Of a DNA stretch of 26,624 nucleotides, positions 154-17,800 are shown piece by piece. The position numbers and the translations under genes were made by a program. Under the pieces are notes generated by a model. It saw nothing but the letters and a program-made list of their open reading frames with translations, was not told the origin of the DNA and searched no databases. The stretch is from assembly GCA_021783855.1 (NCBI GenBank), contig JAJXTL010000025.1, positions 1-26,624 of the forward strand, written 5' to 3'. Within the stretch, counting starts at the first letter, position 1. Every line of letters begins with the position of its first letter. The DNA comes from Pseudomonadota bacterium (GTDB lineage: Bacteria > Pseudomonadota > Gammaproteobacteria > Burkholderiales > Gallionellaceae).

Positions 154-272
154 CTTAGGGAACCGCTGATTTATTGTCATTTCGAGCAAAGATAGAAATA
201 TAACTATTTGATTTATAAGGGTTTTTCTCTTCATTCGGAATGACAAACGAGAATAAATCAGTGCTACCTTAG
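154..272. mobile_element. MITE-like inverted-repeat element upstream of aroA
   Basis: CTGATTTATT at 166-175 is perfectly inverted as AATAAATCAG at 252-261. Just inside, GTCATTTC at 176-183 pairs with GGAATGAC at 237-244 with one mismatch; the right arm carries a 7-nt interruption at 245-251. Outside, the match continues imperfectly (left TTAGGGAACCG, right read in reverse CTAAGGTAGCA). The result is a roughly 120-bp AT-rich palindromic unit without an ORF, which fits a MITE or the non-coding end of the adjacent IS630-like element. It ends about 48 bp before the aroA start and so makes up most of the aroA upstream region. The exact ends are uncertain. Confidence 0.5.
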
Positions 273-319
273 TCGTTTTACCAGTAGTTTCACCAATGAC
301 GAACATTTGAAAGTGCATC

Positions 320-2482
320 ATGACTCACTCTGAATATATAGACCTTCCCCCTTTGATGTCCGCGCGCGGCACGGTTGTGCTGCCAGGTTCCAAGAGCATT
401 TCCAACCGCGTGCTGCTGCTGGCCGCATTGGCGGATGGTGTCACTGAGGTGCGTGATCTGCTGCATTCGGATGATACCGAGCGCATGCTGGATGCACTTC
501 ACATACTGGGAATCAAGATTGAATCGCTGGGCGACAATGTCCTTCGACAAGGCTCAGGACAGGCCTATCGCATCACCGGATGCGGCGGGAATTTTCCAAA
601 TAAGGAAGCTGAATTATTTTTAGGCAATGCAGGAACAGCCTTCCGCCCGCTGACCGCAGCGCTGGCGCTGACGGGCGGCAGCTATAAATTGTCCGGCGTG
701 CCTCGCATGCACGAGCGCCCGATCGGCGATCTGGTGGATGCGCTACGCCAGCTGGGTGCAAATATCCGCTATCTGGGAAATGAAGGTTTTCCGCCGTTGC
801 AGATTTCTCCTCCCTCACCTCCGTCCCCTGATGGAACTCCCAGCCATTCGACTAAGCCTGCAAGCAGGCAAGTCGCTGGTTGTCTCCCGGGGGGCGAGGG
901 AAGGGTAGAGGTGCGCGGCGATGTGTCCAGCCAGTTCTTGACGGGTCTTCTGATGGCGCTGCCACTGATCGGTCAGACCGTTAAGGTTGAAGTGGTGGGC
1001 GAGCTGATCTCCAAACCGTACATTGAGATCACGCTGGCGATGATGGCAAGGTTCGGTGTCGATGTGGTGAAACAGGATGAGCAGAATTTCTTTGTGTTTG
1101 GCGGGAGCTGCTATAAGAGTCCGGGCGTCATTCATGTGGAGGGGGATGCCTCAAGCGCGTCGTATTTTCTCGCAGCGGGCGCAATTGGCGGCGGGCCGGT
1201 GCGCGTGGTGGGTGTCGGTAAAACTAGTGTGCAGGGCGATGTGCGCTTTGCGGATGCACTGGCGCTGATGGGCGCGCAGCTCAGCATGGGGGATAACTGG
1301 ATCGAGGCCGCAGCGCCAGTCAATGGCAAGTTGCAAGCAATTGAATTGGACTGCAACCACATTCCCGATGCGGCGATGACGCTGGGAGTCGCTGCCTTGT
1401 ATGCCGAAGGCACAACTGTGTTGCGCAATATTGCCAGCTGGCGCGTCAAGGAAACCGACCGCATCGCAGCGATGGCGACCGAGCTGCGCAAGGTTGGCGC
1501 GACGGTAGAAGAGGGTGCCGATTACATTAAAATTTCAGGATTGGGGAGTGAGGAGCGAGGAATGAGTGAAAACCGCAGTTCTGCTTCAATCCTCAATCCT
1601 CAATCCTTCACGCAACAACTTGGGGCGGAGCCCCTTGGTTGTGCGGGGAAGACCCTTGCGGTCTCGATCCTCAATCCTGTCATAGACACTTACGACGATC
1701 ATCGCATGGCGATGTGTTTTTCGCTGGCGGCCTTTGGGAGTGGCATACGCATCAACGATCCCGGATGCGTTGCGAAAACCTTTCCAAATTATTTTTCCGC
1801 TTTTGCCGGGGTGACCAAAGCCGTTCCGGTGATCGCCATCGACGGTCCTTCCGCATCGGGTAAAGGGACCGTGGCGCAGCTTGTGGCCGCTCAACTCGGT
1901 TTTCACTATCTGGACAGCGGCGCCTTGTACAGGGTGCTTGCGATGGCGGCTGAACGCGACGGTGTGGCGCTCGATGACGAGGCTGCGCTGGCTGCACTGG
2001 CTGAACGCATGAATGTCGAGTTCAAGGGTGAACAAATCCGGCTCGACGGGGTGCTCGCAGGGGATGAGTTGCGAGGAGAACAATGTGCGGCAGAGGCCTC
2101 CATCGTTGCGGCATTGCCGCGGGTAAGGGTTGCCTTGCTCAATAAACAGCGCGCTTTCAGGCGCAGTCCGGGCCTGGTGACGGATGGGCGCGATATGGCA
2201 TCGGTGGTGTTTCCCGACGCGACTTTGAAGATTTTTTTGACGGCTTCCGCCGAGGCGCGTGCAGAACGTCGTTATAAGCAGTTGAAAGAAAAAGATATGG
2301 GTGCTAGTATTGCAACCCTTTTGCAGGATATCAGGGCGCGCGACGAGCGAGACATGCAGCGCAGCGCAGCTCCCCTGCAACAGTTTCCGGATGCCAGTCT
2401 GCTGGATACCACGGCGCTTACCATAGAGCAGGCGGTCGATGTGGTGCTGACAGGCTACCGGGAAAAATGTGTGGCCCCCTAG
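320..2482 (+). CDS. aroA-cmk: Bifunctional 3-phosphoshikimate 1-carboxyvinyltransferase / cytidylate kinase
   Basis: A 720-residue fusion. Residues 1-497 are EPSP synthase (shikimate pathway, transfer of enolpyruvyl to shikimate-3-phosphate): PGSKSISNR at about 22-30, the [14 protein letters not shown] loop, [21 protein letters not shown] at about 200-211, VKETDRIA and [10 protein letters not shown] at about 460-469. Residues 502-720 are CMP kinase, with P-loop GPSASGKGT at 509-517, LDSGALYR and [13 protein letters not shown]. No stop or strong internal start separates the halves; such fusions are known in betaproteobacteria. The AroA half is about 70 residues longer than E. coli AroA (427) because of three repeat-like inserts, at residues 74-81, about 163-195 and about 408-453. 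Active-site motifs flank but do not contain the inserts, so both activities are probably kept. The ATG at 320 has only a weak ribosome site. rpsA follows 66 bp later. Confidence 0.93.
539..562 (+). repeat. 24-bp palindromic repeat inserted in frame in aroA
   Basis: GTCCT at 539-543 and AGGAC at 557-561 flank the core TCGACAAGGCTC. This arrangement matches the common dispersed bacterial palindrome with the core CTTCGACAAGCTCAGGAC. The eight codons (539-562) give VLRQGSGQ, residues 74-81. From memory, related AroA proteins run directly from the preceding LGD into a Y-R-[IV]-T-G segment, so the palindrome looks like an exact 8-codon insertion. Confidence 0.55.
808..905 (+). repeat. Palindromic repeat element inserted in frame in aroA (copy 1 of a shared core)
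   Basis: The segment encodes about 33 extra residues (163-195, Ser/Pro/Gly-rich) between FPPLQI and [11 protein letters not shown], which are close together in ordinary AroA. The 57-nt core at 828-884 matches 16510-16566 (reverse strand) in the RND gene with 51/57 identities. It contains a perfect hairpin GCCTGC-AA-GCAGGC at 856-869, extended by CGACT/AAGTCG on either side with a bulge. Outer flanks are CCCTC-rich on the left and GAGGG-rich on the right, giving a larger imperfect palindrome. Confidence 0.75.
1540..1681 (+). repeat. Second repeat-rich in-frame insertion in aroA
   Basis: Residues about 408-453, between DYIKIS and [12 protein letters not shown], replace the roughly ten-residue linker seen in E. 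coli AroA. The DNA has a GGATTGGGGAGTGAGGAG-like left end, tandem CAATCCT units at 1586-1606 repeated once more near 1671-1677, a GGGGC/GCCCC hairpin (1622-1634) and an AGACC/GGTCT hairpin (1650-1664). The ATTGAGG-type ends lie in inverted orientation, as in mosaic intergenic palindromic repeats. No second copy occurs in this window. Confidence 0.6.
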
Positions 2483-2548: not shown

Positions 2549-4264
2549 ATGAACGCAACCGCTGACGCAGTATTAAACCCCGATAGTTTCGCCGCAATGT
2601 TTGAAGAAAGTTTGACGCGCAAAGAAATGCGTGCAGGCGAACTGATTACCGCACAAGTTGTGCGTATCGACCACAACGTGGTGGTCGTGAATGCCGGACT
2701 CAAGTCCGAAAGCTGGATTCCTGTCGAGGAATTTCTGAACGACAAGGGCGAAATGGAAGTTGCCGCAGGGGACTTCGTCACCGTTGCAATCGAATCGCTG
2801 GAAAACGGCTATGGTGAAACCAAGCTGTCGCGTGAAAAAGCAAAACGTCTGGCTGCATGGCACGATCTTGAGATCGCCATGGAAGAAGGCAAAATCGTTG
2901 AAGGTTTCGTTAGTGGCAAGGTCAAGGGTGGTCTCACTGCCATGGTTAACGGTATCCGCGCATTCCTGCCGGGCTCGCTGGTGGACATCCGTCCGGTCAA
3001 GGACACCACACCGTACGAAAACAAGACCATGGAATTCAAGGTCATCAAGCTGGATCGTCGCCGCAACAACGTGGTGGTATCCCGCCGCGCCGTTCTGGAA
3101 GCCACGATGGGCGCTGATCGCGAATCCGTGATGGAAAACCTGAAAGAAGGCGCAATCGTCAAAGGCGTGGTCAAGAACATCACCGATTACGGCGCGTTCG
3201 TTGATCTGGGCGGTATCGATGGTCTGCTGCATATCACCGACCTGGCATGGCGTCGCGTGAAGCATCCTTCCGAAGTGTTGACGGTTGGCGACGAAATCGA
3301 AGCCAAGATCCTCAAATTCGATCAGGAAAAGAATCGCGTGTCCCTCGGCATCAAGCAAATGGGCGATGATCCGTGGAATGGTCTGGCACGTCGCTACCCG
3401 CAGGGTACGCGTCTGTTCGGCAAGGTCACCAATCTGACCGACTACGGTTCATTCGTTGAAATCGAACAGGGCATTGAAGGTCTGGTACACGTATCCGAAA
3501 TGGATTGGACCAACAAGAACGTTCATCCTTCCAAGGTTGTGCAGGTAGGCGACGAAGTTGAAGTAATGATTCTGGAAATCGACGAACAGCGTCGTCGTAT
3601 TTCACTGGGTATGAAGCAGTGCCACTCCAACCCTTGGGATGATTTTGCGATCAACCACAAGAAGGGTGACAAAGTCCGCGGTCAGATCAAGTCGATCACT
3701 GACTTCGGCGTGTTCATCGGTCTGGATGGCGATATCGACGGTCTGGTGCATTTGTCCGATCTGTCATGGTCTCAGCCTGGCGAAGAAATGGTACGCAACT
3801 TCAAGAAGGGCGATGAAGTTGAGGCGGTGGTTCTGGCCATCGACGTGGAGCGCGAGCGCATTTCTCTGGGCATCAAGCAAATGGAAGGTGATCCGTTCGG
3901 CGGGTTTGCCGCCACCAATGAAAAGGGCGCCATCGTCAATGGCGTCGTTAAATCGGTGGATGCGAAGGGTGCCGTCGTAACGCTGGATGGCGATGTGGAA
4001 GCCTATCTGAAAGCATCCGAACTGTCGGTTGATCGCGTAGAAGATATACGCACACACCTGAAAGAAGGCGATACCATCAAGGCGATGATCATCAGTGTAG
4101 ACCGCAAGAATCGTGGCATCAGCTTGTCTGTCAAGGCATTGAGCAAGGCGGAAGATTCTGCTGCCATGCAGAAGTTGGCAGCCGACAGCAGCACCAGTGC
4201 GGGAACAACCAATCTGGGTGCATTGCTCAAGGCTAAAATGAGCGGAAGCAAGACTGAAGCCTAA
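2549..4264 (+). CDS. rpsA: 30S ribosomal protein S1
   Basis: A 571-residue protein with six S1 (OB-fold) repeats, close to E. coli S1 (557). S1 binds mRNA and helps the 30S subunit load structured or weakly Shine-Dalgarno-led messages. Repeats 3 to 6 begin near residues 200 ([20 protein letters not shown]), 286, 373 and 460, each with the V.G.V..[IL]TD[YF]G.FV pattern; the first two are the more divergent ribosome-binding repeats. An upstream in-frame GTG exists at 2540, but the ATG at 2549 matches the usual N-terminus and has TAGGTG about 7 nt upstream. It lies 66 bp after aroA-cmk and 14 bp before ihfB, the conserved cmk-rpsA-ihfB order. Confidence 0.96.
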
Positions 4265-14886: not shown

Positions 14887-17800
14887 TCACTTTTGCTTTG
14901 CCGCAGGGCGTTCAACTTTGAACCAGACGGCATATAAAGCCGGCAGGTAGAACAGGGTCAGCAGGGTCGCGATCAGCAATCCGCCCATGATGACAATGGC
15001 CATCGGCCCCCAGAAGACGCTTTGCGTCAATGGAATCATCGCCAGTATCGCGGCGGCGGCGGTCAGCATGATGGGGCGGAAACGGCGTATGGTGGACTCG
15101 ACGATGGCATCCCAGCGATGCATCCCCGAGGCGATGTCCTGGCTGATCTGATCGAGCAGAATGACCGAGTTGCGCATGATCATGCCGGACAGGGAAATCA
15201 TGCCCAGCATGGCGACAAAGCCGAACGGCACCTTAAACAGGAGAAGGGAGGCGGTTACGCCTATGATGCCCAGCGGTGCGGTCAGCAAGGCCATTATGAC
15301 CTGTTTGTAGCGCTTTAGCTGCAGCATCAGCAAAGTGACAATGAGAAAGCCCATCAGCGGCAGAATTTGTATGATCGAATTCTGAGCCTTGCCGCTGTCT
15401 TCCATTGCGCCGCCCACTTCGATGCGATACCCTTCAGGCAGTTTGGCGCGGATGGAGGCAAGCTGCCGGTCGATCGCCATGCTCACATCCGGTGCGCGCA
15501 CGTTGTCAGGGACATCGGCGCGTACAGTAACCACAGGCGTGCGGTTCATGCGCCAGATGATGCCGTCCTCTTCGTCCTCGCTGATCCTGGCAATCCGGCT
15601 GAGCGGCACCGATTTTCCGTGTTCGGTATAGATGTTTAATTGGCTCAATGTTTCGGGATCGTCGCGTTCCGCAGCGTCGGCGCGCGCGATGACTTCGATG
15701 CGCTTTTGCCCTTCCCGCAGGCTGGTGATGGATAAACCGGATAAAAATGCCTGCAGGTTTCTGGAAATCAGCTGGGAGGACAGGCCAAACTCACGTCCTT
15801 TTTCCTGATCGACGTTTATGTTAATCGTGCGTATTTTTTCGTTGGAATCCAGGCTCACGTTCTTGGTGTTGTGATTCTGTCTGACCACCGTGGCGACCTC
15901 CAAAGCGATGCGGCTGAGCTTCTCAGGATCGTCACCGAGCACTCTGAACTGCACCGGATAGCCGACTGGAGGGCCGTTTTCCAGTCTTGCAATGCGGATT
16001 CCCATCGGGGCGTAATCCTGATCCAGCATGTTGCGGATGCGTTTGAGCACCGCTTCGCGCGCTCCGTCACGGGTGTTGATGACGATTTGTGCGTAATTGA
16101 CCATAGGCAGCTGCAGATCCAGCGGCAGGTAAAATCTCGGCGTGCCGCCGCCGATGTAGCTGGTATAGTTTGCGATGCCCGGATCGTTTTTCAGCCTTCC
16201 TTCAAGACCGGTTGTCACCCTCTCTGTCGTAGAAAAACTGGAGCCTTCGGGCAGCCAGACATCCATCAGCAGTTCCGCTCGGTCCGATGGCGGAAAGAAC
16301 TCCTGCTCGACTTTGCCAAAGCCTGCCAGTGCCAGTATAAAGGCGGCCAGAGTGAGGGTGAGCACACTTTTTCGGTGATCCAGACACCACTCCAGCATCC
16401 GTCTGAATCGCAAGTAAAAGCCCCGCTGGTAGTAATCGTCGTTAGCTTGAAATTCGCGTAGCGATTCGTTTGTTCGGCTTCGCCCCCCTCGCTGCGCTCT
16501 CCCCTCCGGGATAACCAGCGACTTGCCCGCTTGCGGGCTTAGTCGAATGGCTAGTCGTTCCATCAGGGTTGGGGAGAGGGCTCGGTTGTGCAGACCATTT
16601 ACCTGCAACAGACGTACGCCGATGAACGGGGTAAAGATTACCGCGACCAGCCAGGAAACCAACAGGGCAATGGTCACCACGGCGCAGATGGAAAATGTGT
16701 ATTCTCCCGCCGAAGACTTGGCAAGTCCCACCGGCAGAAAAGCCGCAGCGGTGATCAGTGTGCCTGTCAGCATGGGAAAGGCGGTGCTGGTATAGGCAAA
16801 GGTGGCGGCATGCAGCTTGCTATGGCCCTGTTCCAGTTTTACTTTCATCATTTCCACCGCGATCATCGCATCGTCAACCAGCAGGCCGAGCGCGATGATC
16901 AGCGCACCTAAAGAGACGCGTTGCAGATCGATGCCGAACAGATACATCAGCAGGAATGTTCCTGCCAACACCAGCGGGATGGATAAAGCGACCACCAGAC
17001 CTGCACGCAGGCCTAAGCTGATGAAACTTACCATCAGCACGATGGCGAGCGCTTCGAGCAGGGCGCTCATGAATTGGTTGATGGATTTTTTAACTACCGC
17101 AGGTTGATTGGAAACCTGATGGATTTCAATTCCCGGCGGCAGCTGTTTCTTGATGCGCACGAATTCGCGATCCAGATCTTTACCAAGTTGGCTGACGTTT
17201 CCATCGGGGGATATTGAAATGGCCAGCCCGATGGCTTCCTGCCCCATGGTGTGCATCTTGAAGACAGCGGGATCGGCATATGAACGGTAGATATGGCACA
17301 GATCGCCCAGGCGATGAATCTTGCCGCCGGCCTTGATGCCGATGTCCTGTATGCTTTTGACAGAGTTGAAATCACCGCTCACACGCAGACGAGTGATGTC
17401 CAGATAAGAGATTATTTCACCGGCCGGCTCCATTTCGTTCTGTGCTTTCAAGGCGGAGGCGATCTGTAACGGGTCGATGCCGAGTTCCGCCATTTTTCTG
17501 CTGGAAAAATCGATGTAGATTTTTTCGTGCTGCACACCGATCAGGCTGACATAACTGACATTTTCTATCGTCAGCAATTCATCGCGTACCAGGCTGGCCT
17601 GTTGTGCCAGCTCGGCATTGTTGAAAGTGCTTGAGGTGAATGCATAGATCGAACCGAAGGTGTCGCCAAATTTATCGTTGATAACGGGGTCAGGCACGCC
17701 CTCGGGCAGGTTTTGGCGTATGTCGGACAGCTCTTTCCTGACCTGATTCCAGGCGTGCTCCAGCTGGTCAGGCGGCATGGAGTCTTTGAGGGTGATGAAA

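Follow-up and report, generated by a model that had tools for sequence, protein, structure and literature searches.

Small palindromic repeats are common in bacteria, and how families of them spread without a linked transposase is an open question. For REP sequences, PMC8266576 describes TnpA_REP enzymes that cleave at CT, one of them also at CA, and reports for one TnpA_REP that the GTAG foot of the hairpin sets the cut site. REPs lying within palindromes are reported in PMC3733652 for A. variabilis, T. roseum and H. neapolitanus, together with CGTC-1 dimers within other palindromes in H. neapolitanus. Specific insertion into REPs or palindromic repeats is described in PMC1525189 for the insertion sequences ISPsy8, ISPa11, ISPpu9, ISPpu10, ISRm19 and ISRm22.

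We analysed a stretch of 26,624 nucleotides of a Gallionellaceae genome (hereafter the window), in which a segment of an aroA gene (828-884, forward strand) recurs in an RND permease gene (16566-16510, reverse strand). Direct reading of the sequence bore out what the first-pass annotation had noticed: over 57 positions the two segments agree at 51 and disagree at 6, each folds as GCC-N-GC AA GC-N'-GGC, and the N/N' pair is T/A in aroA and C/G in the RND gene, which is a compensatory change. A repeat search paired both segments as one inverted pair (68 nt, 85%), and single-stranded DNA folding gave z values of -2.75 and -2.97 for the two copies relative to shuffles. Overall, the best explanation is probably a small non-autonomous mobile DNA hairpin, and we are highly confident of a mobile element together with its insertion rule. 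The search with Rfam at gathering thresholds over the whole window returned a tRNA only, and no description of this element was found in the literature searched, subscription papers being outside its coverage. The features of the window are as follows.

239-295, reverse strand: weak third match (cmsearch E 0.0036), tandem leader units GGTGAAACTACT and GGTAAAACGACT behind a CGTCATT end
320-2482, forward strand: aroA-cmk fusion (EPSP synthase and cytidylate kinase; Pfam PF00275, PF02224) carrying copy A
812-829, forward strand: left (pyrimidine) part of the palindrome hosting copy A, from the joint fold and the homologue P0003, which is without the insert
830-883, forward strand: copy A of the mobile hairpin, 54 nt, in frame in aroA-cmk; 18 residues, with an exact 18-residue gap in P0003
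884-899, forward strand: right (purine) part of the palindrome hosting copy A, from the joint fold and the comparison with P0003
14887-18087, reverse strand: RND (AcrB/AcrD/AcrF-type) permease gene (Pfam PF00873) carrying copy B
16450-16587, reverse strand: extra stretch of the permease, host repeat plus copy B, 46 residues; of 121 aligned sequences, three (window, P0121, P0138) have 8 or more residues at this place
16511-16564, reverse strand: copy B of the mobile hairpin, 54 nt; in frame within the permease gene, in a reading frame unlike that of copy A (MERLAIRLSPQAGKSLVI)

The end of the unit is ambiguous by one T, and the 56-nt alignments therefore use 829-884 and 16510-16565. The weak match at 239-295 lies upstream of aroA and has no clear hairpin after its two leader units; it is probably a decayed nested copy.

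Comparison of the copies defined the mobile unit as GATGGAACTACT - AGCCA..CGACT AA (variable tip) A AGTCG.TGGTT - AT, where the 12-nt leader GATGGAACTACT is followed by a three-tier hairpin with an AA/A bulge and the unit ends in TTAT. Conservation across 121 copies runs from TGATGG through GGTTATC, and the leader, the AA/A bulge and the ends, all of them unpaired, are also conserved. The tetranucleotide at the foot of the hairpin is CTAG in 157 of 170 copies found by pattern, the others having CCAG (8), CTAA (2), TTAG (2) and TTGG (1). Among the same 170 copies the unit measured 54 nt in 109, 60 nt in 53, 57 nt in two and 59 nt in one; the remaining five (45 nt) are truncations produced by the regular expression and were set aside, leaving 165 copies, or 164 without the 59-nt one. 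Thus 164 of 165 non-truncated units are 54, 57 or 60 nt long, all multiples of three, and most copies lie outside long open frames. The 60-nt class comprised 39 of the 45 copies found by pattern in stretches of one genome (G003). Two of the three forward reading frames of the element are open. The unit is a dispersed and apparently non-autonomous mobile hairpin. We also observed a sister family (L013, L044, L058, L101 and L137) in which a GCTTTGCAT-like leader replaces GATGGAACTACT before the same hairpin core; its copy in L013 sits within a GTAG-type repeat (GTAGGTTGGGTTAGC..GCGTAGCGTAACCC).

The proposal that the segments belong to an element that had spread, for which further copies were to be sought, was upheld by their number in related genomes: the element has multiplied widely among iron-oxidising bacteria. 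A degenerate pattern with 22 fixed bases found at least 119 stretches in species genomes, where about 0.03 would be expected by chance according to our own estimate; since the pattern fixes part of the stem, these loci overstate the 54-nt class. The records of copy-bearing loci are titled Gallionella, Gallionellaceae, Gallionellales, Sideroxydans, Sideroxyarcus, Ferrigenium or Nitrosomonadales, others only Beta-, Gamma- or Proteobacteria, and four belong to Thiobacillus or Hydrogenophilales (L001, L004, L044, L058). For the covariance model R1 we used 38 copies, among them both window copies, whose E-values are therefore not independent. It matched in all 10 genomes reached through the loci, with 1 to at least 147 copies per genome when up to 150 candidates were scored in each; the upper figure is that of G003, in which five identical 60-nt copies occupy different places. 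Within the family of G003 the element was found in 65 of 80 genomes and not in the other 15, with up to 69 candidates scored in each. At the level of the order, 150 genomes were sampled and 9 of them had matches at E <= 1e-8, four of these nine being also in the family sample. The viral collection gave one match. Loci were chosen for carrying the element or came from such genomes, so that occupancy and host frequencies are biased.

The stems are maintained, and the hairpin is kept by compensatory change. In an alignment of 38 copies (A2) both partners vary in five of 15 pairs and 91.9% of the cells pair, while in a second one (A3; 23 rows of A2 plus 10 copies from further genomes) five of the 10 outer pairs change on both sides and 99.1% of the cells pair; 0 of 500 shuffles reached the covariation score in either, in agreement with the covariation expected beforehand. 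The tips comprise 61 distinct sequences in 164 copies, with a mean longest stem of 5.03 compared to 3.50 after shuffling of the halves (maximum 3.98 of 500). The first-pass annotation had explained the covariation by selection on the hairpin or by a requirement of its mobility, and here the covariation proved real but its cause less certain: template switching between the arms (quasi-palindrome correction) could produce the same pattern, so that covariation alone is no proof of selection or of a mobility requirement. Template switching is described in PMC8794818 as creating and maintaining hairpins, and both the 61 distinct tips that still pair and the presence of one-sided intermediates agree with it. 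Correction between arms alone, however, fails to explain why the leader, the bulge and the ends are conserved, and the fixed bulge suggests recognition. We consider it somewhat less probable than its opposite that template switching, and not selection for the hairpin, accounts for the covariation.

What the analysis adds to the first-pass annotation is an insertion rule: the element is inserted inside older palindromic repeats, after YT and without target duplication. We joined the flanks of each copy and searched the resulting junctions in the window, in the 119 loci collected by pattern and in 30 + 20 further loci. An exact ungapped empty site was recovered for 116 of 170 copies, while shifting the right flank by -3, -2, -1, 1, 2 and 3 nt gave empty sites for 0, 1, 8, 5, 1 and 5 of 170; because empty sites occur at the exact junction and few at shifted ones, insertion is exact and makes no target duplication. 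The other 54 copies had no empty site under the thresholds used. The ends of the element, for which target duplications had also been considered, lie slightly inside the 57 nt first proposed (54 nt, at 830-883 and 16511-16564), and there is no duplication. No base is duplicated or lost on insertion; the unit follows YT immediately, CT in most cases, and only rarely precedes T. The base before the unit is T in 112 of the 121 copies in which the pattern did not force it; the regular expression behind the 170 copies does force this T, and there the base preceding it is C in 142 and T in 28, while the base following the unit is C in 110, G in 35, A in 22 and T in 3. The two ends are thus unlike, YT at the left and TAT at the right.

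The older palindromic repeats that receive the element include CCCTC...GAGGG palindromes, CGTC-type REPs, TTCG-CCTGAGC repeats and copies of the element itself, so that copies nest. Pyrimidine/purine palindromes, recognised by an approximate composition rule, hosted 59 of 165 copies, CGTC-type repeats 19, TTCG-CCTGAGC repeats 11 and 5 on either strand, and three smaller classes 5, 5 and 3; 17 copies were self-nested and 41 had unclassified hosts, many of which resemble the same palindromes. Since the hosts come from few families, counts of host sites are not independent observations. The 148 non-self host sites fold better than random YT sites (median -7.4 versus -5.0 kcal/mol) and than YT sites outside long ORFs (-3.9 kcal/mol), with G+C of 0.59, 0.55 and 0.47, respectively. 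Relative to their own shuffled composition, 39.9% of the hosts and 11.3% of 300 random places had z below -2. Among the 111 hosts folding at -5 kcal/mol or better, the cut falls in the 5' arm in 59 (32.1 expected from all YT sites), in the 3' arm in 5 (4.5 expected) and elsewhere in 47 (74.4 expected). Self-insertion accounts for arrays with several leaders ahead of several hairpins.

Two further arrangements of nested repeats were observed. In L102, at about 3843-4065 of the reverse complement, a different palindromic element has split a copy; this second element measures about 160 nt, has inverted ends (TTGATCCGG..CCGGATCAA) and shows a possible duplication of TA. In three G003 loci (L153, L155, L167) a AGCCGAAGAGCTTTTGGCCGGGCACCCGA repeat, which hosts other copies, lies within the hairpin tip of some copies.

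The loci and genomes examined yielded no mobilising gene. We found no gene-bearing long form among the loci then collected, in which 167 of the 183 leader matches reach their right end in no more than 75 nt; judged by eye, the other 16 comprise two nested copies, the interrupted copy of L102 and, for the rest, copies that are decayed, cut by the contig end or missed by the right-end pattern, or chance matches. Likewise, none of the 19 cases read out of 22 "other" insertions at the same host sites (about 70 nt each) was recognisable as a gene-bearing long insertion, and several of them were the element itself in a form or orientation missed by the pattern. As a working mechanism, an enzyme supplied in trans would recognise the folded single strand of the element and cut it twice: one cut, after T, would precede the leader, and the other, after TAT, would follow the hairpin. 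The unit would then be joined to another hairpin, at a T that lies exposed in its 5' arm, its foot or its loop. The leader and the single hairpin would act as both ends, as a collapsed IS200/IS605 or REP layout.

The enzyme could be one not yet linked to any palindromic repeat, either a recombinase or transposase that recognises folded DNA or a route through RNA and reverse transcription, and we tentatively place this at about one chance in three or slightly above. The asymmetric ends agree with it, as does the finding that Y1 transposases do not track the element, and CGTC-type repeats, which host the element, are also described without a linked transposase in PMC3733652. Against it, no candidate gene was identified, PF01797 being the sole family compared with copy number by correlation.

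A resident HUH tyrosine (Y1) transposase (a RAYT or an IS200-type TnpA) acting in trans is a slightly more doubtful candidate; its CT target would be set by the CTAG foot as it is by GTAG in REPs. A single-strand reaction of HUH type is attractive because the CT cutting and foot-set site of REP enzymes may have their counterparts here in the CTAG foot and the CT or TT target; the absence of target duplication and the bulged hairpin also fit, and near two Y1 genes of 246-248 residues we saw by eye a short piece like the right end (L123) and a sister-family hairpin (L137). The genomic distribution speaks against this enzyme. The number of Y1 (PF01797) matches did not follow copy number in 80 genomes (Spearman -0.12, p 0.29), 7 of 25 genomes with at least 20 copies had no Y1 match, and 14 of 15 copy-free genomes had one, although the assemblies are largely drafts, in which absence counts for little. 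R1 gave 4 matches and no flanking pair in 30 loci around Y1 genes (96,859 bases). A further 20 stretches surrounding longer Y1 genes (72,081 bases) had no match at E <= 1. In the flanks printed for 26 of the 30 loci (for L129 around the wrong frame), GTAG-type repeats were recognised by eye in 18 and not in 8. A lagging-strand mechanism predicts a replication-strand bias, but 24 copies lay with and 24 against replication in G057 and G076 (the 48 stronger of 57 listed matches, with the origin at dnaA, the terminus at the midpoint and an approximate length for G076). Moreover, the right end of the element is TAT and not CT. We regard HUH-type chemistry in general as less likely than not.

Much less probable is that the element and its host palindrome are copied as one composite repeat, an account that the empty sites refute in general and that could still hold for single lineages. 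It has its example in G211 (L171-L177), where a composite of element and host repeat of about 190 nt has multiplied as one unit: L171, L173, L174, L175 and L177 are 92-98% alike, and 83-91% alike with L176. Not every copy is therefore an independent insertion. Against the composite stand unrelated host repeats with exact empty versions, self-nesting, and the aroA homologue with an empty host repeat.

Copies are depleted in genes: a stop-free frame of 200 codons or more contains 56 of 165, compared to 691 of 1000 random windows. Of those in-frame copies, 51 are read on the plus strand of the element, which is above the two-thirds expected from its open frames (p 2e-5), and the host repeats may be the cause of this excess. 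In-frame insertion in open reading frames was nevertheless seen, also as gaps in homologues, and alignments of homologues supported the in-frame insertion claimed for the two unrelated proteins of the window. Each window copy adds 18 amino acids, in frames that differ between the genes. The nearest homologue of aroA-cmk has 84% identity, and several named homologues belong to Gallionella, so that the bacterium is probably Gallionella-like; P0003 has an empty host repeat, the window protein being exactly 18 residues longer at this place (32 residues against 14). The peptide of the unit occurs in 7 of 121 aligned aroA sequences (the window and the best 120 of 8000) and the insert of P0022 looks like the other frame of the unit, so that this aroA loop has probably been hit more than once. 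For the permease, the insert is present in the three aligned sequences listed above; P0121 and P0138 have the outer unit in common with a different tip, and P0172 has an apparent empty host repeat nearby. As a side observation, the protein of P0121 is 96% identical to the window permease and carries the insertion in the same place with a different tip, as if by tip exchange or a second hit.

Both window copies are two-step insertions, the element lying within another palindromic repeat; for aroA the empty host repeat of P0003 establishes this, and for the permease we infer it. A blastn search for empty sites among the collected loci gave none for the two window copies, that of aroA being recovered only at the protein level. 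That the two segments are conserved protein sequence common by descent, for which we found nothing in favour, is practically discarded, since most of the 120 aligned homologues of each protein are without the segment and the reading frame of the shared DNA differs between the two genes. Two other repeats were noticed in aroA-cmk. At 1601-1672 (forward strand) there is a further in-frame extra stretch of 24 residues, in whose DNA two short hairpins lie between copies of CAATCCTCAATCCT; one of 121 aligned sequences has at least 8 residues there. At 539-562 (forward strand) a TTCGACAAGGCTCAGGACAG repeat, of a family that serves elsewhere as host of the element, encodes a 12-residue stretch, with at least 8 residues in 13 of 121 sequences.

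The mobile hairpin provides clean material for the question of how such families spread: its ends are exactly defined and its target rule is simple, empty sites that match the junction exactly are numerous, and pairing persists in its stem variants. Nested copies order insertions in time, and the two-step route makes a repeat within a gene the landing pad for a second element. We take the element to be selfish DNA with no evident benefit to the cell, tolerated because its targets are already dispensable repeats. More speculatively, and with more doubt than confidence, it may be a parasite of palindromes, a minimal transposable element of one hairpin. Its enzyme would choose targets by folded shape and not by sequence, using a T in the 5' arm or at the foot of small hairpins of any kind, and the element would hence colonise unrelated repeat families and its own copies, build nested stacks and add peptides to proteins that already tolerate a repeat.

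Integron attC sites have RYYYAAC and GTTRRRY boxes at the foot of their hairpin. Compared with these, the element ends in GGTTAT and by eye has no RYYYAAC at its 5' foot. Rickettsia palindromic elements, to which the first-pass annotation likened the segments, are also palindromic units in frame in protein genes; the likeness in in-frame insertion is taken here as an analogy, and the element differs from them by occurring in other bacteria and by inserting into another repeat. MITEs are likewise short, gene-less and present in many copies, whereas the element has no terminal inverted repeats with target duplication (exact empty sites in 116 of 170) and no related autonomous element among the 183 leader matches in the collected loci. 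The insertion sequences that target REPs carry a transposase, whereas this unit is gene-less, of 54 nt, and enters many kinds of palindrome and itself.

With IS200/IS605-type elements the unit has in common a subterminal hairpin, no target duplication and insertion 3' of a short fixed motif, but it has one hairpin only, its motif is just YT and it shows no replication orientation bias. CGTC repeats (including dRS3 and RPE-4/RPE-6) are also dispersed hairpins without a linked transposase and sometimes intragenic; their terminal CGTC and 8-9 bp stem are not present in the element, which has a longer three-tier hairpin and has CGTC repeats among its hosts. GTAG REPs (TnpA_REP/RAYT) are alike in being short, present in many copies, non-autonomous and sometimes in frame in genes, with a single bulged hairpin; insertion of the element after CT (142 of 170, TT in the other 28) may correspond to the CT at which REPs are cut. 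The element differs from them in having CTAG (157 of 170) and no GTAG at its 5' foot, in its 12-nt leader as part of the unit, in a right end at TAT where REPs are cut at CT on both sides, and in having no pair of copies that flanks a RAYT gene in the 30 Y1 loci and 20 further stretches. We file it as a REP-like non-autonomous hairpin with its own leader, its own ends and palindromic targets.
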